This document shows positions 30,251-61,010 of a stretch of DNA of 64,000 nt, piece by piece; the stretch's first letter is position 1, and every line of letters starts with the position of its first letter. Location: assembly GCA_000307935.1 (NCBI GenBank), contig AMWX01000008.1:124001-188000 (forward strand). The letters run 5' to 3'. The translations under genes and the position numbers were made by a program. The stretch comes from SAR86 cluster bacterium SAR86E. Its GTDB lineage: Bacteria > Pseudomonadota > Gammaproteobacteria > Magnimaribacterales > D2472. The notes under the pieces are model-generated. The model did no database searches. It was not told where the DNA came from and saw only the letters and a list, made by a program, of their open reading frames with translations.

Positions 30251-30251
30251 T

Positions 30252-33798: not shown

Positions 33799-35439
<1,641 letters not shown>

Positions 35440-35443
35440 AAAA

Positions 35444-37566: not shown

Positions 37567-37855
37567 ATCTTTAAATATAGTTATTATTTTTTTGATCGGT
37601 CTTGTTCTTTATAGCCTCTTTTTTGGGGTTGATAATAAGTTGAGTTTTGAAAACCTTCAAAATGAAAATCAAAAAATACTTAAAGAAAATGAAATGCTTA
37701 CTCAAGAAAATAATACCTTAGAATCAAGCATCAAGAGCAGACAAAAAAATGACGCCCATGCTGAAAAATTTGCAAGAGAAGAGCTTAATTTGATATATAA
37801 AGATGAGCAGTTTTTGAGCTTCAAGGAAATCAATCCTAATGAACCTAAAAAATAA
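37553..37855 (+). CDS. ftsB: Cell division protein FtsB
   Basis: FtsB pairs with FtsL and FtsQ in the divisome. From the ATG at 37553 the protein has 100 residues: a membrane segment at ~8-24 ([18 protein letters not shown]), a coiled coil ([19 protein letters not shown]), and [17 protein letters not shown] at the C-terminal end, the usual FtsB ending. The track's start at 37517 is inside eno. It overlaps eno by 14 bp and ispDF by 17 bp; the eno-ftsB-ispD order is conserved. Confidence 0.93.
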
Positions 37856-39739: not shown

Positions 39740-40409
39740 TTCGGGTTTTACTTTTACACGTGTCAAGGATCAAATGATTCAGCAATTGCTTGAGATGGAC
39801 ATCAAAGATTTTCGTGTTCTTGATGCATTAAGCCAAGTCCCTAGACACATTTTTTTAGACGAAGCGCTGTGGAGTAGAGCCTATGAAAATAGAGCATTAA
39901 CAATTGGCTACAAACAAACAATTTCTCAACCTTATATAGTTGCTCGAATGACCGAACATTTAGTTTCACACACATCCAAAAGGGGCAAAGTGCTCAAAAA
40001 TGTTCTCGAGATAGGTTCTGGCTGCGGCTACCAATCTGCTGTTTTATCTTATTTTGCAAAAGATGTTTTTGCAGTTGAAAGAATCAAGCCTCTAGTTACA
40101 AAGTCTAGAGAAAATCTTAGCAAGCTAAAAATTAGAAATGTTATTTTTAAGCACGCAGATGGATTTAATGGATGGGAAGAAGATCTTAAATTTGATGGGA
40201 TTATTTGTGCAGCTGCACCCAGAGCATATCCTGAAGAATTACTTGAACTATTAGAGATAGGGGGGAAACTTGTTATTCCAGTTGGGAATGAGGGCCAGCA
40301 AAAACTTTTTGTTGTTACAAAAAAAAGTAACACTGAAAATGAGGAGATCATTCATGAAGAAGTTGCATTTGTGCCCATGTTGCCAGGCATTTCAAATGGT
40401 GAGGTATGA
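39732..40409 (+). CDS. pcm: Protein-L-isoaspartate O-methyltransferase
   Basis: Pcm repairs isoaspartyl residues in aged proteins with S-adenosylmethionine. YKQTISQPYIVARMTE, the SAM motif LEIGSGCGYQSAVLSYFAK and the late GGKLVIPVG are typical. Length 225 is slightly longer than in E. coli (208). The start is GTG within the end of surE. It overlaps the DUF368 gene by 4 bp. Confidence 0.95.
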   Translation: MNSSGFTFTRVKDQMIQQLLEMDIKDFRVLDALSQVPRHIFLDEALWSRAYENRALTIGYKQTISQPYIVARMTEHLVSHTSKRGKVLKNVLEIGSGCGYQSAVLSYFAKDVFAVERIKPLVTKSRENLSKLKIRNVIFKHADGFNGWEEDLKFDGIICAAAPRAYPEELLELLEIGGKLVIPVGNEGQQKLFVVTKKSNTENEEIIHEEVAFVPMLPGISNGEV

Positions 40410-41134
40410 TAGAAAATAATAGGATTAAATATTCTCTAGCAGGTTTCTTTATGGGGGTTGCAGAATTAATTCCGGGTATTTCTGGGGCCACTGTTGCAGT
40501 AATCTTTAAAATTTATCCAAATTTAATGACTATTCTGAGTAAATTAAGAATAAAACATTTATCGTTCAGCCTTTCATCCCTCTCAAAAAAATTCCAATTT
40601 GATCTTCTTCTCCCTCTGATATTCTCAATGATAGCTGCGATTATTTTATGCTCTAAGGCAATTAACTTCTTACTAAACAACTATGAAGAAAATTTTTTAA
40701 CATTTCTGGGTTGCTTGATGATCATCTTATCTCTCCAAATTATAAATTTTTTTAAAGGTATCTTGCATCAAAAAAAACTTTTCATTTTTATATTTTTAGG
40801 TACCAGTATTGGATTCATATTAGGGCAATTAGATGTTGAGTCTGAAAATATTTCAATTTTTTATTTAATCTTAAGCGGAGTTTTGGCTTTTTCTTTTTTT
40901 CTTATACCTGGAATTTCAGGCAGCTCAATGTTGGTTGTTTTGGGGATTTATAGTCCCATTATTGGAGCAATAGCTAACTTTAATTTCGATATTTTGATTC
41001 CATTTGCACTGGGATGTTTAATCTCTCTCTTGCTTTTACCTAGATTAATTCTTTCAATTTATTCATCTTATGAACAGAGCTTGCTTTATCTTTTTTCTGG
41101 GTTAATTGCCTCATCCGGATTGCTCTTGCTGTGA
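40406..41134 (+). CDS. DUF368 family membrane protein, probable undecaprenyl phosphate translocase
   Basis: The protein has about eight hydrophobic segments and two inverted-looking halves, each with a PGISG motif: GVAELIPGISGATVAV near residue 17 and FFLIPGISGSSMLVV near 165. This is the DUF368 signature; family members (named PopT) were recently shown to return undecaprenyl phosphate to the cytoplasmic face. Length 242 is near the lower end of the family. It is inserted between pcm and nlpD, which are usually adjacent, and overlaps both by 4 bp. Confidence 0.85.
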   Translation: MIENNRIKYSLAGFFMGVAELIPGISGATVAVIFKIYPNLMTILSKLRIKHLSFSLSSLSKKFQFDLLLPLIFSMIAAIILCSKAINFLLNNYEENFLTFLGCLMIILSLQIINFFKGILHQKKLFIFIFLGTSIGFILGQLDVESENISIFYLILSGVLAFSFFLIPGISGSSMLVVLGIYSPIIGAIANFNFDILIPFALGCLISLLLLPRLILSIYSSYEQSLLYLFSGLIASSGLLLL

Positions 41135-41781
41135 TCAAATTTCAAAATCATTTTAAATTATTAATTCTTGTGCTGTTATCAAGTTGCTCCAGCCTTGATT
41201 TTTTTCAGAGTGCCTACTCAGATTTTGTGCCTTCATTATATAAAGAGAGCTATATCGTACAGCCAGGAGACTCTATTTGGTCTATCTCAATTAAACAAAA
41301 CTTAGATGTAAATTTATTAATTGAAAATAATAATTTAGAAAACCCTTTTATTATTTATCCAAATCAAAAATTAATTCTAAGAAGGGAAAAGAGTAACAAT
41401 AATTATGTAGAGAATTCTAAAATTACAGAATGGCATTACCCTTTAGGCAAGAAATCAAAAAATATAATTAATGATGAGGCATGGCTAATCATTAAAGAGC
41501 CCAAAGGTACTCCTATTCATTCAATATATAGTGGAAAGATTGTAGTTTCAGGACCTGATATTCCAGGGTATGGAAACTTAGTAATGATTTCTCATCCAAA
41601 TGGTTTTTTAAGTTTATACGCTCATTGCGATAGGATCTTCGTTAATACAGGAGATGAGGTAAAAAAAGGTGAGGTCATAGCCCAGATTGGCAATTCAGAA
41701 GCAGCTTATCCTATGTTACGGTTTCAGTTAAGGAAGAATGGCAAGCCTATGATGAATGATAAACTAGATTTTTTATTTTAA
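41131..41781 (+). CDS. nlpD: NlpD-like murein hydrolase activator lipoprotein (LysM and degenerate M23)
   Basis: A lipobox (VLLSSC) predicts an outer membrane lipoprotein. LysM occupies residues ~43-90 (YIVQPGDSIWSISIKQN). The M23 domain spans ~120-216 (GYGNLVMISHPNGFLSLYAHCD). The catalytic HxH motif is replaced by LRFQLR and the first zinc motif is also absent, so it is probably non-catalytic like E. coli NlpD, which activates AmiC. The start is GTG overlapping the DUF368 stop. rpoS, normally next, is missing. Length 216 is compact. Confidence 0.86.
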   Translation: MIKFQNHFKLLILVLLSSCSSLDFFQSAYSDFVPSLYKESYIVQPGDSIWSISIKQNLDVNLLIENNNLENPFIIYPNQKLILRREKSNNNYVENSKITEWHYPLGKKSKNIINDEAWLIIKEPKGTPIHSIYSGKIVVSGPDIPGYGNLVMISHPNGFLSLYAHCDRIFVNTGDEVKKGEVIAQIGNSEAAYPMLRFQLRKNGKPMMNDKLDFLF

Positions 41782-41796
41782 AATTCTTCGCATTAA

Positions 41797-42120
41797 TTAC
41801 TTTTCAAGAAGATGCTTCTTATCTTTAATATCCGCATACTCATTAGCCTCAGGGAGCTGGTCTTTTTCTTCTGTAATATTTGGCCAAATTTCACTTAGCT
41901 CAGCATTGATTTCAATAAAATCTATTTGATCTTCAGGTAATTCATCTTCAGAAAAAATTGCATCTACAGGACACTCAGGCTCACATAACGCACAATCAAT
42001 GCATTCTTCTGGATGAATTACAAGAAAATTTGGACCTTCATAAAAACAATCAACAGGACATACTTCAACGCAGTCTGTATGTTTACATTTAATACATGAT
42101 TCAGTAACTATGAATGCCAT
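41797..42120 (-). CDS. fdxA: 7Fe ferredoxin FdxA (FdI type)
   Basis: This 107-residue protein is very close to Azotobacter ferredoxin I. The N-terminal cysteine set [18 protein letters not shown] and second set [17 protein letters not shown] bind a [3Fe-4S] and a [4Fe-4S] cluster. A C-terminal extension ([15 protein letters not shown]) is characteristic. In Pseudomonas fdxA lies just after rpoS; here it follows nlpD directly on the opposite strand, 15 bp away. Confidence 0.96.
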
Positions 42121-42212
42121 TTATTTTAAGTATTGATATATAGTTGCAATTAAGATTAATCGATTTTAGCAATGACTTTTATACAAGTCAGCATGAATTT
42201 AAGAATATTTAA

Positions 42213-42257
42213 TTTTACTTTTTTATAATTTATTATATACTGTATAGATATACAGTA
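42213..42257 (+). promoter_or_regulatory. recA promoter with overlapping LexA (SOS) box
   Basis: TACTGTATAGATATACAGTA at 42238-42257 matches the gammaproteobacterial LexA box (CTGT-N8-ACAG with TA flanks). A -10 hexamer TATACT (42236-42241) overlaps its left arm; TTTTAC (42213-42218) lies 17 bp upstream as a -35. LexA bound here would block RNA polymerase. Confidence 0.93.
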
Positions 42258-42273
42258 ATAAATGGAGTTAATT

Positions 42274-43281
42274 ATGTCTGACAAAGATAAAAACTTGAAC
42301 GAAGCGCTATCACAAATTGAAAAACAATTTGGTAAAGGCACCGTTATGAAGATGGGTGATAGGGAGATAGTAGATATACCATCAGTCTCAACAGGTTCTC
42401 TCGGTCTGGATATTGCTCTTGGAATTGGAGGCCTTCCTAAAGGAAGAGTGGTCGAAATTTTTGGCCCTGAATCATCAGGTAAAACAACTTTAACTCTTCA
42501 GGCTATTGCCGAGTGTCAAAAAGCTGGAGGCACTGCTGCTTTTATTGATGCAGAGCATGCTCTTGATCCAAATTATGCTGAAAAACTTGGCGTTGATGTT
42601 GATGAGTTGCTTCTTTCTCAGCCAGATACTGGTGAGCAAGCATTAGAGGTTACAGATATGCTTGTAAAATCTGGCAGTGTTGACTTGATTGTTGTAGATT
42701 CAGTTGCAGCTTTAACTCCTCGTGCAGAAATTGAAGGAGATATGGGTGACCATCATGTTGGATTGCAAGCCCGTCTGATGTCACAAGCACTCAGAAAGAT
42801 CACCGGAAATATTCAGCGATCTAATGCAATGGTAATTTTTATTAACCAAATTAGAATGAAAATTGGTGTGATGTTTGGAAATCCTGAAACTACTACAGGC
42901 GGAAATGCTCTTAAATTTTATTCATCCGTTCGTTTAGATATTCGCAGGATTGGTGCTGTAAAAGAGGGCGAGGAGGTTGTTGGTAACGAAACTAGAGTGA
43001 AGGTTGTTAAGAATAAAGTTTCCCCTCCGTTTAAACAGGCTGAATTTCAAATCATGTATGGTGAAGGTATTAATACAGAAGGTGAAATTCTAGAGTTAGG
43101 TCAAAAATTAGAATTAGTTGAAAAATCTGGATCTTGGTATAGTCACAATGGAGAGAAAATTGGCCAAGGCAAGGTAAATGCAAGTAAATTCTTAAGAGAA
43201 AATACTAAGATTAGAGATACCTTAGTTAAAGAAATAAGAAATGCATATATTCCTTCTGCCAAGAAAGCAGCTAAGAAATAA
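42274..43281 (+). CDS. recA: Recombinase RecA
   Basis: RecA forms filaments on single-stranded DNA, drives strand exchange and triggers LexA self-cleavage. Walker [10 protein letters not shown] lies near residue 66, followed by [37 protein letters not shown] and [21 protein letters not shown]. The track starts at 42262, but GGAG at 42265-42268 is then part of the coding region; the ATG at 42274 ([12 protein letters not shown]) uses it as a Shine-Dalgarno and gives 335 residues. recX is not downstream. Confidence 0.98.
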
Positions 43282-43344
43282 TTCGTTTTAAACTTGTTAT
43301 GCAGTCTTAAAATTGATTAAGATACTCTCAAGTAGGAGAGAAAA

Positions 43345-44523
43345 ATGTCAAACAATGCATATATAGTTTCAGCTGTTCGTACTGCTGGTGGAAAAAAGAA
43401 TGGAAGTTTAAGCCAATGGCATCCAGCCGATCTTGGTGCAAAAGTATTAGATGAGCTCGTTCATCAGTCTGGTATTGACCCTGCCTTAATAGATGATGTT
43501 ATTTTTGGTTGTGTAGATCAGGTTGGAGCTCAGTCAGGAAATGTTGCAAGAAATGCAATTTTAGCATCCAGCCTTCCAGAGTCTGTTCCGGGAACCTCAG
43601 TAGATCGTCAATGTGGATCATCTCAGCAAGCAATTCATTTTGCTATTCAGGCAGTTATGTCTGGTACTCAAGATGTCGTAATAGGTGGAGGGGTAGAAGT
43701 AATGTCAATGGTGCCAATTGGGGCCAGCATTAAGGATGGTTTTGATGCGGGTCACGGACTTCCCTTTGATTCTGATGGAATGAAAGAAAGATATCCTGGC
43801 ATATTTTTTTCACAATTCACAGGTGCTGAGCTCATGGCTGAAAAATGGAACTTATCCAGAGAAGATTTAGACAAGTTTGCACTTAGCAGTCATCAAAAAG
43901 CTTCTGCAGCTGTAGAAGGCAAATACTTTGATAGAGAAATTCTTCCTGTTCAAGCTAAAAATGCAGAAGGAAAAACTGATATGCTATTTAATGACGAGGG
44001 TATAAGATATGATGCAAGTCTTGATGCTCTTTCAGGTTTAAATCCAGTGACTGAGGGCGGAGTCATTACTGCCGGTAATGCAAGCCAGATAACAGATGGT
44101 GCTGCAGCACTTATGATATGCAATGATGAAGGGCTCAAAAAGGTAAAAGCAGATCCAAGAGCAAGGATTGTTGGTATTAGTGTTGTTGGGGATGATCCAA
44201 TCATGATGCTTGGTGGTCCAATACCGGCCTCTCATAAAGTTTTAAAAGCTACTAATCTCAATATTAATAATATTGATCTTTATGAAGTAAATGAGGCTTT
44301 TGCTCCTGTTCCATTGTCATGGGCAATTGAGCTTAAGGCAGATCTAACAAAATTAAATGTTAACGGAGGCGCCATGGCACTTGGCCATCCATTAGGTGCT
44401 ACTGGAGCCAAGCTTATGACTACATTGCTTCACGAACTTGAAAGAACCAATGGTAAATACGGGCTTCAAGCTATTTGTGAGGGTGGAGGAACAGCAAACG
44501 CAACAATTATTGAGAGACTTTAG
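43345..44523 (+). CDS. Acetyl-CoA C-acyltransferase (thiolase)
   Basis: This is a thiolase that cleaves 3-ketoacyl-CoA or, in reverse, condenses acyl-CoAs. The acyl-accepting cysteine lies in SVDRQCGSSQQAIHF (residue ~93). The other active-site elements are EVNEAFAPVPL, GGAMALGHPLGATGA and CEGGGTANATIIERL. The last motif, with CEGGG followed by A-N-A, is the form seen in FadA6/steroid-type thiolases rather than the usual CxGGGxG of AtoB. A good Shine-Dalgarno (AGGAGAG) precedes the ATG. No fadB partner is adjacent. Substrate length is not clear. Confidence 0.88.
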   Translation: MSNNAYIVSAVRTAGGKKNGSLSQWHPADLGAKVLDELVHQSGIDPALIDDVIFGCVDQVGAQSGNVARNAILASSLPESVPGTSVDRQCGSSQQAIHFAIQAVMSGTQDVVIGGGVEVMSMVPIGASIKDGFDAGHGLPFDSDGMKERYPGIFFSQFTGAELMAEKWNLSREDLDKFALSSHQKASAAVEGKYFDREILPVQAKNAEGKTDMLFNDEGIRYDASLDALSGLNPVTEGGVITAGNASQITDGAAALMICNDEGLKKVKADPRARIVGISVVGDDPIMMLGGPIPASHKVLKATNLNINNIDLYEVNEAFAPVPLSWAIELKADLTKLNVNGGAMALGHPLGATGAKLMTTLLHELERTNGKYGLQAICEGGGTANATIIERL

Positions 44524-45804
44524 TTATTTGTTCTTAAAGTGTTCAAAGATTGTTTTTATATCTTCTAATGTTCCAATAGAGCTTTGACCATCTCGGTGTT
44601 TAAGCTCTATTTCTTTTTTTTCAATATAATTCTTACCAATAATTACATTCATTGGGATCCCGATCAGTTCAGCATCTTTCATTTTAGTTCCGTATCCATC
44701 TTTTCTGTCATCAAGAATTACCTCATATCCCATTGATAAAAAATCTTCATATAAACTCAAAGCAGCTTTTGTAATTTTTTCATCCTTATCAAATCCAATG
44801 GCAACAATATTAACTTCATACGGAGCAATCGATTCAGGCCAAATGATTCCATTTTTATCATTATTTTGTTCTATTGCAGCGGCAACAAGTCTGGAAACCC
44901 CAATACCATAACAACCCATTAATAGGTTTTCTTTTTTGCCCTCATGATTCAAAACATTGGAACCCATCGCATCAGAATAAACTCTCCCAAGTTGAAAGAT
45001 ATGACCTACCTCAATTCCTTTTTTAATCTGAATAACTCCTTTACCATCTGGAGATGGTTTCCCTTCAAGCGAATTTAAATCCTCTCCTTTCTTAAGCAAA
45101 AGTTCAGTATTAATAGCAAATTCTGACCCATTACTTACAGCAATAGTATCTTCTCCATTTTCAGCTAGCACATGGAATTCTTCTGACGCGTCCCCCCCAA
45201 TAGCTCCTGAGTCCGCTTTAACAATCTTAAATTCAAGACCTACTCTACTAATAATATTTTTATATGTGTCCCTCATTTTCATATAAGATTTTTGAAGTGA
45301 CTCTTCGTTTAGATCAAAACTATAGGAGTCTTTCATTAAGAACTCTCTTCCTCTCATGACCCCATACCTTGGCCTAACTTCATCTCTAAATTTAGTTTGA
45401 ATTTGATATAGATTTAGAGGAAGCTCCTTATAACTTTTTACATTGTTCCTTATTAAATCTGTTATGACCTCTTCGTGCGTTGGTCCAAGACAAAAATCTC
45501 TTTCATGTCTGTCTTGAATTCTTAGTAACTCTGGACCCATTTTTTTCCATCTTTTAGTCTCTTCCCATAATTCTTTTGGCTGAACCATGGGCATCAAAAC
45601 TTCTTGCGCTCCAGATGCATTCATTTCTTCTCTTACTATATTTTCTACCTTCCTTAAAACCCTAAGCCCAAGAGGGAGCCATGTATATATTCCTGAAGCA
45701 ACTTTCCTTATCATCCCAGCTCTTAGCATAAGTTGATGACTAATAACCTCAGCATCTTGGGGCGTATCTTTTAAAGTGGGTAAAAAAATCTTAGACCAAA
45801 ACAT
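44524..45804 (-). CDS. proS: Prolyl-tRNA synthetase, compact form lacking the editing insertion
   Basis: This is a class II synthetase charging tRNA-Pro. Motif 1 and 2 regions are clear: [43 protein letters not shown]. Motif 3 is [15 protein letters not shown]-terminal anticodon-binding domain follows ([20 protein letters not shown]). With 426 residues it lacks the ~180-residue INS editing domain of the E. coli type (572) and is like the alphaproteobacterial and mitochondrial form. Its stop is adjacent to the stop of the convergent thiolase gene. Confidence 0.93.
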
Positions 45805-45858
45805 TTTTTATATTTGAATTTTCATTTAGTTTATAATTCTATATTTTTTTAGAGACTT

Positions 45859-46143
45859 ATGCCGATTTATGAATATAAATGCTCAAAATGTGGGCATCAA
45901 TTTGAGATAATTCAGAGATTTTCAGATAATCCAATTGAAACTTGTCCTGAATGTGATGAAAACTCAGTTAAAAAACTTGTGTCTGCTCCATCATTCAGAC
46001 TTAAAGGTGGAGGTTGGTACGAAACTGATTTTAAAACTGGGTCTAAAAAGAATATAGTAGACTCCAAGGATGAAAAAATAAAACAATCAAAAGATAAAAC
46101 TAAAACTACTGAAAAATCAAAAAATACAAGCTCTGATACCTAA
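45859..46143 (+). CDS. FmdB-family zinc ribbon protein
   Basis: The N-terminal ~45 residues form a zinc ribbon: PIYEYKCSKCGHQFE, then CPECDENSVKKLVSAPSFRL. Two CxxC pairs can bind zinc. A conserved GGGWYETDFK follows, then a disordered Lys/Asp/Ser-rich tail. The family (FmdB/YfcZ-type regulatory proteins) has no firmly known biochemical role. It is commonly found just ahead of aspS, as here. A TATAAT (45832-45837) lies ~20 bp before the start. Confidence 0.85.
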   Translation: MPIYEYKCSKCGHQFEIIQRFSDNPIETCPECDENSVKKLVSAPSFRLKGGGWYETDFKTGSKKNIVDSKDEKIKQSKDKTKTTEKSKNTSSDT

Positions 46144-46165
46144 TATTTTAAAAGAGAGATAAAAC

Positions 46166-47587
46166 ATGCGTTCACATTATTGCGGGGACATTAATAATTC
46201 AAATATAGCTAGCGAAGTTGAAATTTCTGGCTGGGTTCATAAAAGAAGAGATCATGGCGGTGTAATTTTCTTAGATATCCGTGATTTACACGGGATAGTT
46301 CAGGTTGTTTTTAACCCTGATATTAAAGAGGTTTTTGACTTAGCTGATTCATGCAGAAGTGAGTATGTTGTTAATGTAAAAGGCTTGGTTCGTAAAAGAA
46401 TTGAAGGTGCTATAAACCCAAAAATGGCTACTGGTGAAATTGAAATCGAAGCCAAAGAAATTAAAATTTTTAGTGAAGCTGTTACACCTCAGTTTCCTTT
46501 GGATGACTATCAAGAGGTTAGTGAAGATGTAAGATTAAAGCATAGATTTATCGATCTCAGGCGACCTGATGTTAGTCAAAAACTTGTTAAAAGATCTAAA
46601 ATAAATTCAAAAATAAGGTCAATTCTTGAGAAAAATAACTTCCATGAGATTGAAACTCCAATTTTAACAAGAGCAACTCCAGAGGGAGCAAGGGATTACT
46701 TGGTACCTAGCAGAGTTCATCCAGGTGAGTTCTTTGCTCTCCCACAATCACCTCAACTTTTTAAGCAACTATTAATGATAGGAGGTTTAGACAAATATTA
46801 TCAAATAGCTAAGTGTTTTAGGGATGAGGATTTACGTGCAGATCGTCAGCCAGAGTTTACACAGGTAGATATCGAGGCTTCATTTGTAACGACTGAGGAT
46901 ATCATTAGGCTTGGAGAGGATATGATTCTTTCTTTGTTAAGCAATTTTACTGACTATAAAAAAACGACAGTTCCTAGAATTACATACAAAGAATCTATTA
47001 AAAAATATGGCTGTGATAAACCTGATCTAAGAATCCCATTAGAGTTACAAGATATATCTGAGTTGGTAAAAAATGAGGATTTTAAAGTATTCTCTGGGCC
47101 TGCAAATGATAAGGAATCCAGGGTTGTTGCATTAAAAGTACCTGGAGCCGCATCTATGACAAGGAAAAAAATAGATGCATATACTGATTATGTAGCGAAG
47201 CTTGGTGCAAAGGGTCTCGCATATATCAAAGTAGTTGAACTGAACAAAGAGAACGGATTGCAATCACCAATATTGAAATTTTTTCAAAAAGAAACAATTG
47301 ATTCAATTATTGCATCCTTAGATGTATCCAATGATGACATGATTTTTTTTGGCGCCGGAAAGGAAAATATTGTTAATCTTTCTATGAGCTCTCTTATTAA
47401 AAGGCTAGGTGAAGATCTTGGTCTGATAAATGCATCTTGGGCGCCATGTTGGATTATTGATTTTCCTATGTTTGAGAGGAACAAGGAAAATAACCTTACA
47501 TCGTTACATCATCCCTTTACATTACCCGCAGTATCAGTAGATGAACTAAAAGCTGATCCAGATAAAACCTTAAGCGACCGTCACTGA
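46166..47587 (+). CDS. aspS: Aspartyl-tRNA synthetase, 3' end lost at a sequence junction
   Basis: The N-terminal OB-fold anticodon-binding domain (SGWVHKRRDHGGVIFLDIRD) and the start of the class II core are intact: ETPILTRATPEGARDYLVPSR, FALPQSPQLFKQLLM, KCFRDEDLRADRQPEFTQ, and the bacterial insertion domain up to FPMFERNKE and HHPFT. After KADPDKTLSD the frame ends RH-stop. Normal bacterial AspRS has ~590 residues, so ~120, including motif 3 (GLDR) and the ATP-binding end, are missing. True aspS sequence ends at about 47,577. As written the product could not charge tRNA; because the enzyme is essential, a misjoin is the first suspicion. Confidence 0.9.
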   Translation: MRSHYCGDINNSNIASEVEISGWVHKRRDHGGVIFLDIRDLHGIVQVVFNPDIKEVFDLADSCRSEYVVNVKGLVRKRIEGAINPKMATGEIEIEAKEIKIFSEAVTPQFPLDDYQEVSEDVRLKHRFIDLRRPDVSQKLVKRSKINSKIRSILEKNNFHEIETPILTRATPEGARDYLVPSRVHPGEFFALPQSPQLFKQLLMIGGLDKYYQIAKCFRDEDLRADRQPEFTQVDIEASFVTTEDIIRLGEDMILSLLSNFTDYKKTTVPRITYKESIKKYGCDKPDLRIPLELQDISELVKNEDFKVFSGPANDKESRVVALKVPGAASMTRKKIDAYTDYVAKLGAKGLAYIKVVELNKENGLQSPILKFFQKETIDSIIASLDVSNDDMIFFGAGKENIVNLSMSSLIKRLGEDLGLINASWAPCWIIDFPMFERNKENNLTSLHHPFTLPAVSVDELKADPDKTLSDRH

Positions 47588-49682
47588 GAACTGTTTTCCA
47601 ACCAAATTCATAATTGGTCACTTCATCTGATTCAGTAATAGGTGGAACGGTATATTTTCCATCAGGCGTAGAATCACCACCAGGTCGATTCAAAAGTCCG
47701 GGTCTAAAACCCTCTGACCAAGTGAGGTAGTACATAATGTCTTCAGATGGATTCCAAGAGTAAGTAATTTTTCCAATCACCCCATCAGTCTCAGCTTTAT
47801 CAGGATAATCCATTGCATCTAATGCAGGATTACCTGAACTGCCTCCAGGCCCATTGTATTTATTGGAAAGGTTAGTTCCAAATCTTTGGCGATCATTATG
47901 AGCAGCTAATCCAGGCACAAATCCAGTAGAAAATGAGGAGTTGGCACTTCCTTCCAAGTCCACTTCAATATCGTACCAACGTGCGCCAACCGTCAGCTCA
48001 GATGTTTCTGATACATCGACACTTAGCTCACCGAAAACACCTTGTTGCTTATCAGTCCTTCTTACATCATTAACAAACATGACAGGGGGAGCATACGGTC
48101 CCCTACCTGAATGCCAGCCAGCACCAGCATTTGAGCTGCTTCCAGTTAGCGGAACACCTGTGACTGAGGTATCTGTAAGCGCATAATTAAGCCCATAGCC
48201 TATATCACTTACAAGCGCGCCTGGATAAGTAAACATATTGTGCTCTGTTAACTCAAGATCACTAAAAAATACTCCGGCAGTAAGACTCATGGTGTCATTG
48301 ATTGGAGCATTAACTCTGAGTTCATGGGTTTGAACTTCAGATTCAACTATTGAATCTACATACATATCTGGCGCTCCACAATCACCATATGGAAGACCTG
48401 TATATGGAGCGGGAACTTTAGCTGGGTCACTGTTTGCATATGTGACGTAATAATCACAAATGTAGTATGGGAGATACTGACCCACAAAAAGATAGTCAGT
48501 ATAGTCAATTCTTTGATCAGAGCGTCTGTCAGTATAAGCACCAGCATAGACAACCTCCAAATCACCGATTGATCCTTCTAAGGTTAAGCTTAAATTATCA
48601 AATTCATCAGCAATGCTGTCATCATGATATCTCTTTACTTCTAGATCTCCCAGGGTTGGATCTGCAAAAAAGACCCCATCAGATTCGATGGTTTGATTGG
48701 CAACGCTAACTAAAGCATCCCAATTATCATTCAGCTCAGTTTTAATGCTTGCTCTGAAGCCATGATAAGTTGATGTGTTGACATCATCTTCAACAATTGC
48801 ATTTGCACTTTGTCTGGTCACACCTGTTAAATCAGCATTTGCTCTCCAACCATCTCTTGAAGAAGCAACAGGTAAGCCATTGGATCTTACAGTACCAGCT
48901 GGTCTCCAAGCTGCAGATTGACTGACATCTACCGACCCAGCAACCTGATCAATGTATCCGCCCCTTTCATCACGATATGCAACAAATCTTAAAGCCGAAG
49001 AATCACTCAAAGGTACATTAGACATGTATTCAACCTTAGAGCCTACATCACCGTCAGGCATGTATCTTCTTTCAATTTCTAAACTGCTAGCTGATTCACC
49101 AATAACAGGTTTATTTGTAATCAGCCTAACAACACCAGCTTGTGAGCTTGCACCAAATAAAGTTCCTTGAGGTCCTGACAATACCTCAATACGAGAAACA
49201 TCTGCAGCATAAACATCAAGATTTCTGCCCGGATAAGCAAGCGGTTGCTCATCTAAATAAAAAGATACGTTTGGAGCCAAACCCCCAACACCGGCAGTTG
49301 TTAAATTTGGGGTAGTTGATGCTAAACCTCTTATATAAATGGTACTTTGACCAGGCCCCGATCCACCTGCTGTGACACCAGGTAACTGTAAAAGATAGTC
49401 CTCAAAAACATTGATTCCTTTCTCTTCAAGAGTTTCTTCCCTCAATGCAGAGACAGAAAGTGGAACATCTTGCAGGCTTTCAGTTCGCTTTCGAGCTGTC
49501 ACCACCACCTCTTCAACCGTCGCTTGAGTTTGCGCAGCTATATATCCACTGAATGCAGAGGCATTAACAATTGCCATCGCAGACAAAGATGGAATTATCT
49601 TCTGAGTAATTTTGTTAACAGTAGCCTTGCTAAAGATATTTTTTATTTTATTTAAATAGTTACTTTTCATAGTATTCAGCAT
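47517..49682 (-). CDS. TonB-dependent outer membrane receptor, 3' end lost at the same junction
   Basis: A long signal region (residues ~25-52) precedes the TonB box EEVVVTARKR at ~57. The plug domain follows (QDVPLSVSAL, GLLPG-like LQLPGVTAG, YIRGLAS, VLSGPQGTLFGASSQAGVVRLIT). Beta strands of the barrel run to NYEFGWKTVLSDGRLRF at about residue 706. After that the frame reads antisense aspS (YLDQLLVHLL...) and stops. Receptors of this subtype continue ~100-250 residues further, ending in an aromatic. Real receptor sequence is therefore ~47,565-49,682. The ligand is unknown; such receptors take up siderophores, vitamins, glycans or lipids. It diverges from a BCCT transporter. Confidence 0.9.
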   Translation of the reverse strand: MLNTMKSNYLNKIKNIFSKATVNKITQKIIPSLSAMAIVNASAFSGYIAAQTQATVEEVVVTARKRTESLQDVPLSVSALREETLEEKGINVFEDYLLQLPGVTAGGSGPGQSTIYIRGLASTTPNLTTAGVGGLAPNVSFYLDEQPLAYPGRNLDVYAADVSRIEVLSGPQGTLFGASSQAGVVRLITNKPVIGESASSLEIERRYMPDGDVGSKVEYMSNVPLSDSSALRFVAYRDERGGYIDQVAGSVDVSQSAAWRPAGTVRSNGLPVASSRDGWRANADLTGVTRQSANAIVEDDVNTSTYHGFRASIKTELNDNWDALVSVANQTIESDGVFFADPTLGDLEVKRYHDDSIADEFDNLSLTLEGSIGDLEVVYAGAYTDRRSDQRIDYTDYLFVGQYLPYYICDYYVTYANSDPAKVPAPYTGLPYGDCGAPDMYVDSIVESEVQTHELRVNAPINDTMSLTAGVFFSDLELTEHNMFTYPGALVSDIGYGLNYALTDTSVTGVPLTGSSSNAGAGWHSGRGPYAPPVMFVNDVRRTDKQQGVFGELSVDVSETSELTVGARWYDIEVDLEGSANSSFSTGFVPGLAAHNDRQRFGTNLSNKYNGPGGSSGNPALDAMDYPDKAETDGVIGKITYSWNPSEDIMYYLTWSEGFRPGLLNRPGGDSTPDGKYTVPPITESDEVTNYEFGWKTVLSDGRLRFYLDQLLVHLLILRVM
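47565..47577. other. Junction between two unrelated gene fragments with ~13 bp microhomology
   Basis: The bases AAACCTTAAGCGA (47565-47577) read as KTLSD in aspS on the plus strand and as part of SDGRLRF in the receptor on the minus strand, and both readings fit their families. Left of it only aspS makes sense; right of it only the receptor does. This is the pattern expected when two sequences are joined at a short shared word. Confidence 0.8.
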
Positions 49683-49848
49683 GATATTCCCCCAAGGGAT
49701 TAAATAGATTTAGAGTTGATTAATGGACTGGAAGCGGTTATGAATCCTGCTTCTTTGATTTGATTTGCTTAAGCCGTAACTTAAGTTTTTTAAAAACATA
49801 CTAAGACCATAACAAATGAAATCAATGTTTTTAACTAAATATGAAAAA

Positions 49849-49887
49849 AACAGCATTTATTTTCAATTTAAAGCATTTAATGCTGTT
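49849..49887. repeat. Inverted repeat upstream of the BCCT transporter
   Basis: AACAGCATT (49849-49857) and AATGCTGTT (49879-49887) are perfectly complementary with a 21-base spacer, in the 226 bp gap between the divergent receptor and transporter genes. It could be an operator or an mRNA structure. No T-run follows it, so it is unlikely to be a terminator. Confidence 0.45.
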
Positions 49888-49908
49888 CTTGAGTAGACTG
49901 ACTTCGCA

Positions 49909-51411
49909 ATGTTTAAAAATATAGCGCCCAAACGCTTTCTATTTTCAATCCTAGTCATTACTTCGTTTATTGGAATTACGCTTGCCAATCTAAATCAAGC
50001 TGATAGCTTATTTGCAAATCTCCAGAAAGAAATTTCTGACAACCTTGGCTGGTTGATTATTTTAGCAGCAAATGCAATTTTGATATTTGTAATATTTCTG
50101 GCATTTAGCAAACATAAAAATGTGATTCTGGGAGGAGCGGATGCAAGACCTGAGTTTTCAAATATTAACTGGATCGCTATGTTGTTTAGCGCTGGATTAG
50201 GTATAGGCCTTCTGTTCTATGGTGTTGCAGAGCCCATTTTACATTTAAGTTCTGATGTAATACATCCAGTTGATGCTGAGTTTGCAGATCGAGCCAATCT
50301 TGCCATGAACTTTACATACCTGCACTGGGGCTTTCATGGTTGGTCAATATACGCCGTGGTTGGACTTTGTTTTGCATACTTTACGTTTAATAAAAATAAA
50401 CCTTTTAGAATAAGCTCATTTTTTTCTGGCAGCCTCACCGATCGAGTTTGGGGTCGAGTCTCTCTTGATGTGATTGCAATCATAGCGACCATTTTTGGAA
50501 TAGCGACCTCGCTTGGTCTTGGAGCTAACCAAATTAACTCAGGTCTTGGATACATGGGTGTTCTCGATGAAAGCTTTAGCAGCACAGTAGGCATTATTAT
50601 TTTTATTACAATCCTTGGATTGATCAGCGTGGTGCTTGGTCTCAAGACTGGAATTAAAAGATTGTCTCAAATCAACATGATTTTATGCTCATTGTTTCTT
50701 TTATTTATCTTTTTTGCTGGGCCGTCTGCCTACATTCTTGATGGCATTATTCAAAATATTGGTTCGTATCTTCAGAAGATCTTAATTCTATCCTCGAGCA
50801 CTCAGGGATATGCTGATTCGGCATGGCAAAATAGCTGGACTCTTTTTTATTATTCATGGTGGTTTGCCTGGTCTCCATTTGTTGGACTATTTATCGCGCG
50901 AATTTCATACGGTAGATCGATTCAAGAATTTTTATTAGGAGTGGTACTTGTGCCCTCTATATTGGTATTCATTTGGATGGGCGTTTTTGGTAATGCTGCT
51001 TTAAATCAGGAGTTTCTGGAGCCAGGCTCGCTCAGCACAGCAATTAACAATGATATTACGATCTCTTTGTTCGTATTTCTTGAACAATTCCCATATGCAC
51101 CTGTGTTAATGGGTTTATCAATATTAATTATATTAACTTTTTTTGTAACTTCTTCAGATTCAGGTGCATTGGTTACATCAATGCTAACTGCCGCAAACAA
51201 TGAAAGCGCGCAAGAAGAACCGCCGATGACGCTGAGGGTAATATGGGCTCTATCTTTGGGTGTTATAGCAATTGTACTTTTAGCGGGAGGAGGGCTGAGT
51301 GCACTTCAAACCTCAGTGATTGTCACTGGCGCTCCTTTTGCAATTCTAATTTTCTTTGCTTGCAAAAATTTATTAAACAATCTTAATGAACAATCTAACT
51401 CATTAGATTGA
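49909..51411 (+). CDS. BCCT-family betaine/carnitine/choline transporter
   Basis: Twelve hydrophobic segments are expected in this 500-residue permease. Family signatures are NWIAMLFSAGLGIGLLFYGVAEP (residues ~82-105) and SWWFAWSPFVGLFIARISYGRSIQEF (~325-350), whose tryptophans form the substrate cage for trimethylammonium compounds. The glycine-rich unwound helix (SAGLGIGLLFYG) resembles sodium-coupled members such as BetP. Substrates may be glycine betaine, choline, carnitine or DMSP; the sequence alone does not decide. The long regulatory C-terminus of BetP is absent. Confidence 0.92.
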   Translation: MFKNIAPKRFLFSILVITSFIGITLANLNQADSLFANLQKEISDNLGWLIILAANAILIFVIFLAFSKHKNVILGGADARPEFSNINWIAMLFSAGLGIGLLFYGVAEPILHLSSDVIHPVDAEFADRANLAMNFTYLHWGFHGWSIYAVVGLCFAYFTFNKNKPFRISSFFSGSLTDRVWGRVSLDVIAIIATIFGIATSLGLGANQINSGLGYMGVLDESFSSTVGIIIFITILGLISVVLGLKTGIKRLSQINMILCSLFLLFIFFAGPSAYILDGIIQNIGSYLQKILILSSSTQGYADSAWQNSWTLFYYSWWFAWSPFVGLFIARISYGRSIQEFLLGVVLVPSILVFIWMGVFGNAALNQEFLEPGSLSTAINNDITISLFVFLEQFPYAPVLMGLSILIILTFFVTSSDSGALVTSMLTAANNESAQEEPPMTLRVIWALSLGVIAIVLLAGGGLSALQTSVIVTGAPFAILIFFACKNLLNNLNEQSNSLD

Positions 51412-51414
51412 CTG

Positions 51415-51666
51415 CTAATCTGAAGATTGTTCCATTGACACAAGATAAATAACCCCAAATAAAAAAGTCATGGTGAATGCTTTTATGGGTGCATCGGATG
51501 AACTTAATATTCTCTTGCGGAGAAGAATACACTCAACCAAATGTGAAATTAATAAGAGCCAAAAAATAAAAGTTGAGAAATAAAAAAGAAATCCTTTAAA
51601 GGGTTGGAAAAAATTAATGATGCCCATAGACCATAAAACCAGTGGAATAAGATAACGAACTTTCAT
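51415..51666 (-). CDS. Small inner membrane protein, possibly DUF1145-like
   Basis: An 83-residue protein with three predicted membrane stretches: residues ~5-20, ~25-47 (FLFYFSTFIFWLLLISHLVECILL) and ~63-77 (AFTMTFLFGVIYL). The HLVECILLRKRI segment and TFLFG near the C-terminus recall the DUF1145/YhhL group of unknown function, but I am not certain. It is convergent with the BCCT gene, with 3 bp between stops, and preceded by a long non-coding gap. Confidence 0.6.
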   Translation of the reverse strand: MKVRYLIPLVLWSMGIINFFQPFKGFLFYFSTFIFWLLLISHLVECILLRKRILSSSDAPIKAFTMTFLFGVIYLVSMEQSSD

Positions 51667-51830
51667 AAATACATATTAAAGAATCTTGATGATCGTGACT
51701 ATCAATAAAAATCAATAACATATTCTGAATCAGTCCTAGCCTGGAGATATCCTTTGTTTATTTAAAATTTTAATCTGCTAATTGGCATCAAAATTGCAAC
51801 TACCGATATTGTAAATTTTTGGGATTAGTA
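51667..51830. other. Intergenic region between small genes
   Basis: This begins the longest sparsely coding stretch of the window (51,667-52,384). No RNA gene or strong terminator was seen. A possible weak promoter for the 34-codon ORF is TTGGCA at 51782-51787 and GATATT 17 bp later. Confidence 0.4.
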
Positions 51831-51935
51831 ATGTTAGATTATATTAATAAGTTAATTGTTTTTTGCTCTGATTATCCTTCATGGTCAGTGGCTTTCTTTG
51901 TCTGCGGTTTTATAATGGGCGAAGTATATTTCTAG
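51831..51935 (+). CDS. Possible 34-residue membrane peptide
   Basis: This ORF is too short for the supplied track. It reads ATG at 51831 to TAG at 51935: MLDYINKLIVFCSD, then YPSWSVAFFVCGFIMGEVYF. A hydrophobic stretch (WSVAFFVCGFIMG) of ~13-16 residues suggests a single membrane segment. A weak GGGA lies ~9 bp before the ATG. No family is recognised. Its composition is plausible for a small membrane protein, but a chance ORF of this length is not rare. Confidence 0.3.
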   Translation: MLDYINKLIVFCSDYPSWSVAFFVCGFIMGEVYF

Positions 51936-52006
51936 AATCTTTAATTCTTGATAGAACATTTAGATAAATTCACTGTCTGGAAGATTGTGAGTAAAGTTGA
52001 TGAATT

Positions 52007-52022
52007 ACTTAAACTTTTAAGT
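52007..52022. repeat. Palindrome upstream of the 61-codon gene
   Basis: ACTTAA-ACTT-TTAAGT is a perfect 6 bp inverted repeat with a 4-base loop, ending 31 bp before the ATG at 52054. A TATACT -10-like hexamer follows at about 52027-52032, so the palindrome would lie in the promoter spacer, where an operator could sit. Confidence 0.35.
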
Positions 52023-52053
52023 GTCATATACTTTTACATAACTAGGAGGTTTG

Positions 52054-52239
52054 ATGAAAGACTTAGAATTTATAAACGACCATAGAAAAAAACGAATATC
52101 TAAAGATTTAAATAAACAATTGCAAAAGCATACAGACCTTATTGCAATCAACTCAGAATTAATCCAATTATCTGGAACTAGCAGTCAAAAGATACAATTA
52201 ACTGAATTATTAAGAAAAATAAATAATCTCTATTTATAA
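52054..52239 (+). CDS. Hypothetical 61-residue charged helical protein
   Basis: A perfect Shine-Dalgarno AGGAGG (52044-52049) lies 4 bp before the ATG at 52054, the strongest ribosome binding site in this region; the track uses the TTG three bases earlier. The product is polar and helical (FINDHRKKRISKDLNKQLQKH, then SSQKIQLTELLRKINNLYL), with no signal peptide, cysteines or membrane segment. I recognise no family. The good translation signal makes a real gene likely. Confidence 0.6.
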   Translation: MKDLEFINDHRKKRISKDLNKQLQKHTDLIAINSELIQLSGTSSQKIQLTELLRKINNLYL

Positions 52240-52384
52240 AAAGTTTTTTTAAAATAAATTGAGTTTTAGATAAATTTGAATGCCATAGAAAAATATAAAA
52301 GAATTTTATATTTCTTTGCACTCCCCTTAGGTGACTTTATAAAACACGAAGTGTGACTACTGCATTTATTGTATATTTATATTT
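52240..52384. other. Intergenic region before the ceramidase-like gene
   Basis: The 145 bp between the small gene and the ceramidase-like gene are AT-rich. A T-run (AAAAAGTTTTTTTAAAA) just after the 52239 stop may end transcription. No clear promoter pair was found for the downstream gene. Confidence 0.35.
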
Positions 52385-53881
52385 ATGAAAATTAACTTCC
52401 TTACATTAGTAACTGCTGGGATTCTTTTACTTGCTCGAGTTGAAGCAGGAGAATTCCAGGTTGGATTTGCACAGCTCTCAATTACTCCCGACCTGATAGA
52501 TCAATGGGTCGACATAAACAATGATGCCCAATTTGATCCTGATATTGATCTATGGACAGATGTTAATGGTAATGAAAAATTTGATGCTGTGTGGATGGCA
52601 GGTTTTCAAAAAAAACGACCTGCGCAAGGCATAAAAGACGACCTTATGGCAGTGGCGGTAGTAATTGATGATGGTATAAATCGTATTGGGATTGTATCTG
52701 CTGATACGGTCGGCTTGATGCGTAAATTTGTAATTGATATTCGTGAAGCTGTGCCTACAAATTGGGGTTTAGATTATCTTATGGTGCATGCAACTCATAA
52801 TCATGAAGGTCCCGATACTCAAGGTCTTTGGGGGCCAGGTTTTTTTACCTCCGGCATTGATCCTGATTACATGGCGCAATTACAGCAAAATATACTAGAT
52901 GCACTAAGCGAAGCCATAGACAACTTAGAGCCCGCGCAGATGAGTATGGCGCGCATTCCAACAAATCCATTAACACCAATCAAAGATAAGCGTAAACCCA
53001 TCGTAATAGATGACGATATTCGAGCATTATTATTTAGCCGACCAGATGGTTCAGTGATAGGTACATTAATTAATTTTGGAATTCATGTAGAACTTGCTTG
53101 GGATAAAAATCTAGAATTAACAGCAGATGTGGCTGGCTATCTTAGAAGAGGACTCAGTGAGGGTATTTATTATGAGAACGAGCTATTGAAGCCTGGACTT
53201 GGTGGAACCACATTATGGCTTACAGGCAATATTGGAGGCTTAATGACTTCTGGGCCAGATGATGCCATCTATGATCCATTTTTAGAGAAAACTATTACTA
53301 AGCCAGGTCACTCCAAAGCTCGTACCTTTGGTTATAGTTTGGCAAACAGCGTCATTGATGCTTTCAATGAAAATAGTTTTGTGCCTAGTCCAGAACCAAC
53401 AATAACTTTCAGCGCCCTCGAGGTAGAATTAGGTATAGATAATTTCATGTTATCGTTGGGCACCCTGCTAGGTATTGTCGATAGCAGCCCCCAATTTCAT
53501 CTGATGCCACCATTCATTCGTTATCTCAGTGAAGTGGCATTCATTCAATTGGGAGATGCAACTATTACTGGCATTCCTGGCGAGCTATATCCAGAAATTG
53601 CTGTGGGTGGCATAGAAAATCCCAAAGGTGCTGATTACGCCATAGCACCTCAAGAAGTACCTCATTTGCGCAGTCAACTTCCGGGTAAATTAAATCTCAT
53701 GGTGAACTTGGCAAATGATGCTATCGGTTACATCATTCCAAAAAGTGAATGGGATAACGCCCCTCCCTGGATCTATGATGAGAATGATGAGACTTATGGC
53801 GAGGTTGTATCCTTGGGTCCAAATACTGCTCCAATTATTCACCAAACTGTAATCAAGTTAGCAGAAGAGTCAAAACCTTAA
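52385..53881 (+). CDS. Secreted neutral-ceramidase-like hydrolase
   Basis: A signal peptide covers residues ~1-22 (ending VEAGE). The motif ATHNHEGPDTQG (136-147) corresponds to the zinc- and substrate-binding HTHSGP region of neutral/alkaline non-lysosomal ceramidases. Other fits are GFAQLSITP near the N-terminus, NFGIHVEL (zinc His) near 250, and YIIPKSEWDNAPPW near 460. Known members hydrolyse the amide bond of ceramide. An unusual insert right after the N-terminal strand has two acidic loops, DINNDAQFD (43-51) and DVNGNEKFD (59-67), resembling calcium-binding loops. With 498 residues it lacks the C-terminal domain of full ceramidases (~640-670), so the natural substrate may be another amide or ester. 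Confidence 0.75.
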   Translation: MKINFLTLVTAGILLLARVEAGEFQVGFAQLSITPDLIDQWVDINNDAQFDPDIDLWTDVNGNEKFDAVWMAGFQKKRPAQGIKDDLMAVAVVIDDGINRIGIVSADTVGLMRKFVIDIREAVPTNWGLDYLMVHATHNHEGPDTQGLWGPGFFTSGIDPDYMAQLQQNILDALSEAIDNLEPAQMSMARIPTNPLTPIKDKRKPIVIDDDIRALLFSRPDGSVIGTLINFGIHVELAWDKNLELTADVAGYLRRGLSEGIYYENELLKPGLGGTTLWLTGNIGGLMTSGPDDAIYDPFLEKTITKPGHSKARTFGYSLANSVIDAFNENSFVPSPEPTITFSALEVELGIDNFMLSLGTLLGIVDSSPQFHLMPPFIRYLSEVAFIQLGDATITGIPGELYPEIAVGGIENPKGADYAIAPQEVPHLRSQLPGKLNLMVNLANDAIGYIIPKSEWDNAPPWIYDENDETYGEVVSLGPNTAPIIHQTVIKLAEESKP

Positions 53882-53896
53882 TTTGTTTTTGCCTTG

Positions 53897-53920
53897 AGAA
53901 GCCCTATTTAAAGGGCTTCT
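53897..53920. repeat. Strong GC-containing hairpin between the ceramidase-like gene and tRNA-Glu
   Basis: AGAAGCCCT (53897-53905) pairs perfectly with AGGGCTTCT (53912-53920) around a 6-base loop. It lies between convergent transcripts and probably ends one or both, but neither side has a following T-run in the needed orientation; on the plus strand the T5 run precedes the stem. Confidence 0.5.
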
Positions 53921-53928
53921 AGAGAAAT

Positions 53929-54004
53929 TGGCATCCCGTAGGGGAGTCGAACCCCTGTTGCCGAGATGAAAACCCGGTGTCCTAGGCCTCTAGACGAACG
54001 GGAC
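53929..54004 (-). tRNA. tRNA-Glu (anticodon UUC)
   Basis: The complement reads GTCCCGTTCGTCTAGAGG..., with the anticodon loop GTTTTCAT (TTC), T-arm GGGGTTCGACTCCCC, and an encoded 3' CCA. It is 76 nt long and matches the bacterial tRNA-Glu body closely. It stands alone rather than in an rRNA operon. Confidence 0.96.
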
Positions 54005-54016
54005 TAGATTGCGGCA

Positions 54017-54022
54017 ATTATA
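54017..54022 (-). promoter_or_regulatory. -10 element of tRNA-Glu
   Basis: On the minus strand TATAAT is followed by a GC-containing stretch (TGCCGC) and then the tRNA 12 bp downstream. A -35-like TTTTCA lies 17 bp upstream. Perfect -10 spacing to the tRNA supports use. Confidence 0.6.
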
Positions 54023-54056
54023 AAAGCTAATAAGTCTCTTGAAAAGGTTTAAATAC

Positions 54057-54782
54057 CTATTTAATTCTCTTATTTATAGCTTTTAAAAACCCTCTTAGAA
54101 AATTGCCTTCCATCTGATCTGGGTAAAGCCTTCGAAACATTCTTTCCATCCTGGTCATGATTTGCTTTGGATTTTTGGAGTCTACTAGATCCAGTGCTTG
54201 AACGGTTTCGTTGAAGTGCTGGATGAGATGATTCAACTCTTCAGATGTATACTCTGGAAAATCTTGCCAAGATTCTATCGAATGATTTTGTGCCGCCTGA
54301 TAAATCTCATAACAAATAACTTGGGTAGACATGGCGATATTCAAAACGGGGTAATCAGGATGGGCCGGGATAATTAAATGTTTATTCGCTAATTGCAACT
54401 CCTCATTGGTCAGTCCCCTGTCCTCTCGACCAAAAATTATTGAAACTTCGATGTTGTTATTTACTAAATCCTGAATCTCTTCTGCAGCATCTTTTGCTGA
54501 TAATATTGGCCACTCTATAGTTCGATCTCTTGCAGAGGTTGCATATATAACTTTTGAACCTTTGACTGCGGTTTGAATTGAATCAAAAACCTGAGCATTG
54601 TCCAAAAGATCCGTAGCATTGCCAGCCAGTGCGGTAGCATCTTGATGGGGAAATTTTTTTGGATTAATCAAAGCTAGCTTTGCCAACCCCATGTTTTTCA
54701 TAGCTCGAGCAACTGAACCAATATTACCTGGATGAGAAGTTTCTACTAAAACGATTTGAATAAACCTATTAATGGGATTCAT
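54057..54782 (-). CDS. trmJ: tRNA (cytidine/uridine-32 2'-O)-methyltransferase TrmJ
   Basis: TrmJ is a SPOUT-class enzyme that methylates the ribose at position 32 of several tRNAs. The N-terminal IVLVETSHPGNIGSVARAMKNMGL, the SIIFGREDRGLTNEEL loop and the knot segment IPAHPDYPVLNIAMSTQVICYE are diagnostic. Length 241 is typical. It diverges from suhB with 36 bp between starts, the arrangement common in gammaproteobacteria. Confidence 0.95.
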   Translation of the reverse strand: MNPINRFIQIVLVETSHPGNIGSVARAMKNMGLAKLALINPKKFPHQDATALAGNATDLLDNAQVFDSIQTAVKGSKVIYATSARDRTIEWPILSAKDAAEEIQDLVNNNIEVSIIFGREDRGLTNEELQLANKHLIIPAHPDYPVLNIAMSTQVICYEIYQAAQNHSIESWQDFPEYTSEELNHLIQHFNETVQALDLVDSKNPKQIMTRMERMFRRLYPDQMEGNFLRGFLKAINKRIK

Positions 54783-54818
54783 ATAACTATTATCGTCATT
54801 TCCAGTACAATATGCGAC

Positions 54819-55619
54819 ATGTCTAAGCCTGCTTTACTAAATGTCGCTATTCTTGCAGCCAGAGTTGGAGCTGCAGAGCTAGAATTTGCAGTGAAAAAAG
54901 TACATAAGCTTGATGTAATTAAAAAAGGTCCTACGGATTATGTTACTGAGGTTGATAGAAAGGTTGAGGCAATTGTTTTTGAGGAAATCAAAAAATACTA
55001 CCCTGAAGATAACTTTCTCGGGGAGGAGTCTGGTCATGAGATCAATACCTCAGATACCACATGGATCTTAGATCCGATAGATGGCACCACTAATTTCATT
55101 CATGGCTATCCTCAATATTGTATTTCTCTAGCATGCGTTGTTAAAAATCAAACTCACCATGCGGTAATTATTGATCCAACTAGAAGAGAGGAATTTAGCG
55201 CCTCTAGAGGGAAAGGTGCTGAGCTCAATGGAGAAAGGATTAGAGTAAGTACACGCAAAAGCTTAAAAGATGCTTTGGTTGGTAACACCTCGCATGTAAA
55301 TGATTCACAAAAATATACTTTCGATAATATTGCTACCTTCAGATCTCTATACAAACATAGTCTGACTATCAGAAGATCGGGTTGTTCTGCATTGGATCTG
55401 GCTTATGTGGCATCCGGAAGATTAGATGCGTTTTGGGCTCAAGGATTGGGTATTTGGGATGTTGCTGCTGGCATGCTCATAGCCGAAGAAGCAGGAGCGT
55501 TAACTAGCAATTTTCTTGGAAATCCAGACTACAAGGATAGCGATCACTATCTTTGCGCTACTCCCAAATGTTTTAAACCCATGCTAGAGGCTATCAAGCC
55601 AAACTTCAAAGCCCATTAG
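54819..55619 (+). CDS. suhB: Inositol-1-monophosphatase family protein SuhB
   Basis: SuhB is a Mg-dependent inositol monophosphatase-fold protein that in E. coli also joins the rRNA antitermination complex. Metal-binding motifs are GEESGHE, LDPIDGTTNFIHGYP and IWDVAAGMLIAEEAGA. From the ATG at 54819 (MSKPALLNVAI) it has 266 residues, matching E. coli (267); the track's start at 54756 is inside trmJ. Its stop overlaps the convergent secF stop. Confidence 0.95.
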   Translation: MSKPALLNVAILAARVGAAELEFAVKKVHKLDVIKKGPTDYVTEVDRKVEAIVFEEIKKYYPEDNFLGEESGHEINTSDTTWILDPIDGTTNFIHGYPQYCISLACVVKNQTHHAVIIDPTRREEFSASRGKGAELNGERIRVSTRKSLKDALVGNTSHVNDSQKYTFDNIATFRSLYKHSLTIRRSGCSALDLAYVASGRLDAFWAQGLGIWDVAAGMLIAEEAGALTSNFLGNPDYKDSDHYLCATPKCFKPMLEAIKPNFKAH

Positions 55620-56530
55620 GGCATATCGTCAAACTCAGCTCCTTCAGGTTCTGGAATTGCTAGATCATCTTGAGTGATTGAAAGTCCTAAGAGCATATTT
55701 GCAACCACATAGATGGATGAATAGGTTCCAATTAACACACCAATGATTAATGCCTGACTAAATCCTCGGATCATGTCTCCACCAAAGAAAAATAAGGCAA
55801 GCAAAACTAACAATGTTGTTAATGAAGTAATTAATGTTCTTGAAAGCGTTTGATTGATAGATTTATTAACAATTTCTTCTGGCTCATAACCCCTTTCGCC
55901 TCGAAAGTTTTCCCTTATTCTGTCAGAAACAACGATGGTGTCATTAAGTGAGTAACCTATCACAGCCAACAATGCAGCCAGAACTGTCAAGTCAAAATCC
56001 CATGAGAACAGGGAAAAAAGGCCAAAGATTATTACTACATCATGAGCAAGAGCCGCAACAGCTCCCAAGGCAAATTTATATTGAAATCTGAAGGCAACGT
56101 ATAACAAAATCATACCCAGAGCGACAAGCATTCCAAGCCCACCTTGATCTCTTAGCTCAGTCCCAATTTGAGGGCCTACAAACTCAATTCTTTTTAACTC
56201 TATTGCTGGATCTGCAGCTTGTAAAAACTTAAAAACAACATCCCCAATTTGACTGTTTCCATTTTTGTCTGCAACCTTTATAAGTACGTCAGAATTTGAT
56301 CCAAAGTTAACAACTTGAAAATCATCAAATCCATTGGTGAAAACTAAATCCCTTATATCAGCAAGATCAGCAGCCTGCTCATATGACACCTCAATTAATG
56401 TACCGCCACTAAAATCTAAGCCAAGATTTAATCCCTTGAAACTAAGTGAGCCAATTGATAGAACAAGTAACACTAACGAACTGATGGTCGCAACACGTCG
56501 ATAACTCATAAATGGAATATTAAAATTCAC
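55616..56530 (-). CDS. secF: Protein translocase subunit SecF
   Basis: SecF works with SecD to pull exported proteins through SecYEG using the proton gradient. Six membrane segments are present. Motifs include LGLDFSGGTLIEVSY, VGPQIGTELRDQGGLGML and the helix 4 region VIGYSLNDTIVVSDRIREN followed by SINQTLSRTLITSLTTLLVLL. Length 304 is normal. The start meets the secD stop. Confidence 0.96.
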   Translation of the reverse strand: MNFNIPFMSYRRVATISSLVLLVLSIGSLSFKGLNLGLDFSGGTLIEVSYEQAADLADIRDLVFTNGFDDFQVVNFGSNSDVLIKVADKNGNSQIGDVVFKFLQAADPAIELKRIEFVGPQIGTELRDQGGLGMLVALGMILLYVAFRFQYKFALGAVAALAHDVVIIFGLFSLFSWDFDLTVLAALLAVIGYSLNDTIVVSDRIRENFRGERGYEPEEIVNKSINQTLSRTLITSLTTLLVLLALFFFGGDMIRGFSQALIIGVLIGTYSSIYVVANMLLGLSITQDDLAIPEPEGAEFDDMP

Positions 56531-58392: not shown

Positions 58393-58400
58393 AAAAACTA

Positions 58401-58712: not shown

Positions 58713-58721
58713 ATAATGTTC

Positions 58722-60855: not shown

Positions 60856-60890
60856 TGGAGAGGCTAATTCTAAAAGATGTTGATCTCAGC

Positions 60891-60905
60891 TACAATGACC
60901 CGCGT
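60891..60905 (+). promoter_or_regulatory. Predicted -10 and GC-rich discriminator of tRNA-Leu
   Basis: TACAAT (60891-60896) is followed by GACCCGCGT up to the tRNA. A GC-rich discriminator is typical of stable-RNA promoters under stringent control. No good -35 is visible. Confidence 0.45.
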
Positions 60906-60990: not shown

Positions 60991-61010
60991 CTGTATAATA
61001 AGTATTAAAA

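Follow-up and report, generated by a model that had tools for sequence, protein, structure and literature searches.

Two opposed genes are cut at one inverted join

The contig studied here carries an inverted join between aspS and a TonB-dependent receptor gene that was very probably made in the laboratory, most likely as a chimera from multiple displacement amplification (MDA) of a single SAR86 cell. The window, i.e., the whole 64,000-nucleotide stretch that was analyzed, covers positions 124,001–188,000 of contig C8 in assembly G000 (1.397 Mb, 13 contigs, 87.8% complete), and SAR86 cluster bacteria are the closest named relatives of its genome. From sequence comparison, we infer rather than prove that the join, termed J1, is an artefact; it was almost certainly not carried by the living cell. 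The features concerned are the following:

1..47565, no strand: left block, colinear with G009:C2; its right part is also colinear with G010:C1 and G022:C2, up to aspS
46166..47565, plus strand: 5' part of aspS, genuine codons 1 to ~466 of ~588; homology ends at 47,565
47566..47587, plus strand: spurious 3' tail of aspS, the receptor antisense read through to a chance stop (DNA comparison, genus probe)
47565..47566, no strand: J1, the inverted aspS/receptor join, with 0–1 bp shared (G000:C8:171,565/171,566)
47517..47565, minus strand: spurious 3' tail of the receptor, aspS antisense read-through; no receptor match enters it
47566..49682, minus strand: 5' part of the TonB-dependent receptor, genuine ~706 of roughly 880–890 codons; homology starts at 47,565/47,566
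47567..64000, no strand: displaced inverted block, continuing outside the window to C8:227,027, about 55 kb in total
C8:227,027 (region C8:226,961–230,810; L073:6961–10810), no strand, outside the window: J2, an inverted fusion of the rpsP tail with groEL at groEL residue ~359

The aspS frame (46166–47587) encodes 473 aa, compared with frames of 585–597 aa in relatives (translations of 584–588 aa), and matches AspRS of the same genus over residues 1–470 only, with 80–87% identity to most of them. It retains the OB-fold, the GAD domain, and the first two thirds of the class II catalytic core as judged by Pfam domains; positions 1–216 of the 308 in Pfam tRNA-synt_2 are matched, compared with 1–308 in a relative, and motif 3 (GLDR) falls within the lost part. 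All 19 of the same-genus aspS loci that were read are intact, with yebC 3–16 bp downstream, and in every further SAR86 locus at which both genes could be placed, aspS is likewise intact and directly followed by yebC. The living cell would be expected to carry an intact aspS followed by yebC. An earlier note, made from the window alone, had regarded the loss as credible only if a second copy exists. Neither a second aspS nor a detached aspS 3' end bearing motif 3 was found in the searchable assembly, which excludes the masked contigs C4, C7, C10, and C13 (~2.4 kb in total); apart from the truncated gene itself, the search hit only a class II synthetase paralogue, 30% identical.

On the opposite strand, the receptor frame (47517–49682) encodes 721 aa, of which homology extends to about residue 713, and the frames of its closest relatives measure ~873–895 aa. 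The protein is 81–83% identical to the closest same-genus receptors and keeps the plug domain (Pfam Plug) and most of the barrel. A search of the same searchable assembly for the missing receptor C-terminus, which the earlier note had also proposed, returned only paralogues at 27–37% identity and the window's own stub.

Breakpoint and shared bases

The two frames overlap tail to tail at 47,517–47,587. The breakpoint was mapped with a 301-base probe across the join, which was compared with 26 genus genomes, the window's own included. Most aspS matches to the probe end at query position 150 (window 47,565) and none reaches beyond it, and receptor matches start at 150–151 or later (47,565/47,566), so the proposal that both genes are truncated at a shared point is borne out. 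Each side of the probe matches same-genus loci at up to 85–86% DNA identity. The join itself is absent from the 25 other genomes, G000 alone matching across the probe, and it contains no Ns.

The probe and a DNA comparison at the join did not uphold the ~13 bp that had been proposed to fit both protein families. On the aspS side, relatives read GATAA-TTCATTGGCA, compared with GATAA-AACCTTAAGC in the window. Relatives of aspS diverge after GATAA and relatives of the receptor match from AAACC on, leaving a single A common to both sides; by homology to relatives, the microhomology at J1 is therefore 0–1 bp. In the aspS frame, the residues K-T-L-S only loosely resemble the N-S-L-A of relatives. 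Only if codon usage in the lost aspS was unusual here could the overlap be longer, and even then it would not exceed about 8 bp (AAACCTTA).

Gene order in relatives

In G022, G009, and G010, aspS and the receptor lie on one strand, 122–131 kb apart: the distance is 123 kb in G022 and 131 kb in G009, and the start coordinates in G010 are 448.5 kb for aspS and 570.1 kb for the receptor. Over about 104 kb to the left of J1, C8 keeps the gene order of G009. To the right, it runs from the receptor back toward aspS for ~55 kb, in the reverse of the order in relatives; on G022:C2, this displaced block runs from 100.9 kb up to 165 kb, where colinearity continued from aspS would run downward from 224 kb. 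Since the two genes share a strand in relatives and the right side is reversed in C8, J1 is an inverted join. In the living cell, the receptor is presumably intact and on the same strand as aspS, roughly 120 kb away.

Two further observations concern gene order. A 638-aa ORF (C8:187,289–189,205; window 63289–64000) lies inside the otherwise colinear displaced block and has almost no counterpart at the same place in G022, G009, and G010, apart from a 14% stretch in G010 only. A third break in gene order, J3, is located at C1:349,892–349,922 and cuts no gene. Its left side continues in relatives toward the window's receptor, and its right side lies ~395 kb away in G010; none of the natural continuations that were tested (receptor-side genes and an oligopeptide-binding protein) is present in the assembly. 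Either a further chimera or a rearrangement of natural origin may therefore underlie J3.

A missing block and a second inverted join

A composite query was built from marker fragments of the region, roughly 55 kb long, that separates groEL from aspS in G022. In the searchable assembly, this search gave no orthologue-level match for the groEL N-terminus, ileS, murJ, sucC, sdhA, hisS, iscS, dapA, tolB, yebC, or one more marker. Such absences depend on the search tool; orthologues of neighboring genes were recovered in the same search, with typA and receptor-side neighbors found at 64–92%. Separate searches returned GroEL as residues 359–549 only and again no sdhA in the searchable assembly. The genes ileS, hisS, groEL, and aspS are of established essentiality. 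The groEL–aspS block is best read as an assembly dropout rather than a gene loss, because the joint loss of these genes is not credible in a living gammaproteobacterium.

J1 and J2 form the two edges of this one missing block. Beyond J2, C8 reads in reverse through the genes in between and ends at rpsP; the two segments joined there lie about 3–4 kb apart, with a strict overlap of about 1 bp. The last 67 bases of C8 are the exact reverse complement (100% identical) of the 67 bases that immediately precede J2, and a common unit, TAKDVVEDVVEAAADVAEDAVD, stands at the end of the right copy of this repeat and at the start of the left one. No exact inverted repeat was found in the 8-kb ends examined of other contigs. 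J2 looks like a fold-back amplification chimera, on evidence that is strong yet short of conclusive. Such a chimera would duplicate these bases and make the assembler stop at the end of C8, and a simple inversion would leave them single; but the rpsP tail is repetitive, and a natural origin of two identical units is conceivable in principle. The gene for ribosomal protein S16, rpsP (L073:10285–10810), encodes a long acidic C-terminal tail of imperfect ~22-residue repeats rich in A, E, D, and V, and rpsP of G022 has a different, A/E/P-rich tail at the same place.

Origin of the join

Chimeras form during MDA when a 3' end that has been displaced primes wrongly on another displaced strand close by, and 85% of them are inverted (PMC1855051). 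By this route, the inverted join would have arisen when a 3' end displaced in the aspS region misprimed on a displaced strand from the receptor region. The true template from aspS to groEL and beyond the receptor 3' end would have gone unrecovered, leaving the assembler with the chimeric molecule alone. We infer both the single amplified genome as source and MDA as the responsible step. Many named relatives bear AG-/AH- plate identifiers in the style of SAGs (GORG-type SAGs), which is circumstantial with respect to a single-cell source, and the assembly includes contigs as short as 224–305 bases, which would be unusual for a binned metagenome genome. Contig C3 had no RNA match and no match in relatives. 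A viral origin was rejected, with no matches in phage records or viral contigs.

As in the inverted MDA chimeras of Lasken and Stockwell (2007), the segments joined at J1 come from one genome, are non-adjacent in intact relatives, and are inverted, lying on the same strand in relatives and opposed in the window, with the intervening DNA skipped (PMC1855051). Short complementarity of 2–21 nt accompanies over 70% of MDA chimera cases and is common but not required (PMC1855051); J1 shows 0–1 nt. In that study, 83% of inversions span <10 kb, and 69 of 406 inverted chimeras span >10 kb, with complementarity in only 34.8% of the latter (PMC1855051). With ~122 kb between its segments and little or no complementarity, J1 fits this distant class, and J2, at ~3–4 kb, fits the near class. 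Two points count against MDA: the span of J1 exceeds that of most MDA chimeras, and J1 and J2 each have a strict overlap of ~1 bp, below the usual several bases. The chimeras of Lasken and Stockwell were seen in single reads and mostly span <10 kb, whereas J1 stands in a finished contig (PMC1855051). MDA chimeras in short-read data also join non-adjacent segments in inverted orientation, but their overlaps peak at 6 nt and their distances at 250–300 nt, the distance at J1 being far larger (PMC4595205).

It is very unlikely that the chromosome itself underwent an inversion of ~122 kb that broke both aspS and the receptor and whose reciprocal join falls in the unassembled part of the genome. The geometry is exactly that of one half of an inversion, with same-strand genes in relatives and one end inverted, and the gene order of relatives is also broken at J3, where no gene is cut. 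Such an inversion would, however, destroy the only aspS, motif 3 included, and AspRS is essential; viability would call for a second or intact aspS, and the one aspS present is truncated. The reciprocal join was not found, neither missing end being present in the searchable assembly (2.4 kb of masked contigs left out); the event is shared by none of the 25 other genomes probed; and it would leave unexplained the second gene-breaking join, J2, at the block's opposite edge. A natural inversion that split aspS in a SAR86 lineage, in which AspRS activity then came from a second, unassembled gene or from two fragments that complement each other, is extremely improbable.

A pure assembly or scaffolding error without any chimeric molecule, for example contigs linked through mate information with no N gap left between them, is also given little credence. 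J1 does lie at the edge of missing regions, and composite SAR86 SAG assemblies are reported to be extensively misassembled (PMC11582366). Those genomes share with the present one the bacterial order, artificial joins, and, as presumed here, derivation from single cells, but they are co-assemblies of several cells (PMC11582366); in the present assembly, nothing points to more than one genome. Against such an error, the 0–1 bp shared at J1 is too short for overlap-based joining, no Ns mark a gap, and the fold-back repeat at the end of C8 suits chimeric molecules better. Chimeric molecules therefore probably existed, and amplification is likelier than pure assembly error because a k-mer mis-join would need a much longer overlap. 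The earlier note had named a chimeric join as the most likely cause, and this reading is supported by the inverted synteny, the absent continuations, and the second inverted gene-breaking join.

Consequences for the use of the assembly

The warning that any inference from synteny across 47.57 kb would be affected is well founded: claims of altered gene order, gene loss, or a 'truncated aspS' drawn from the assembly across this point would be wrong. A simple screen for pairs of opposed genes that are cut at the same point and whose natural continuations are both missing would detect such joins in the reference genomes on which synteny work relies. The contamination score of the assembly, 0.05%, missed the join because both halves belong to one genome.
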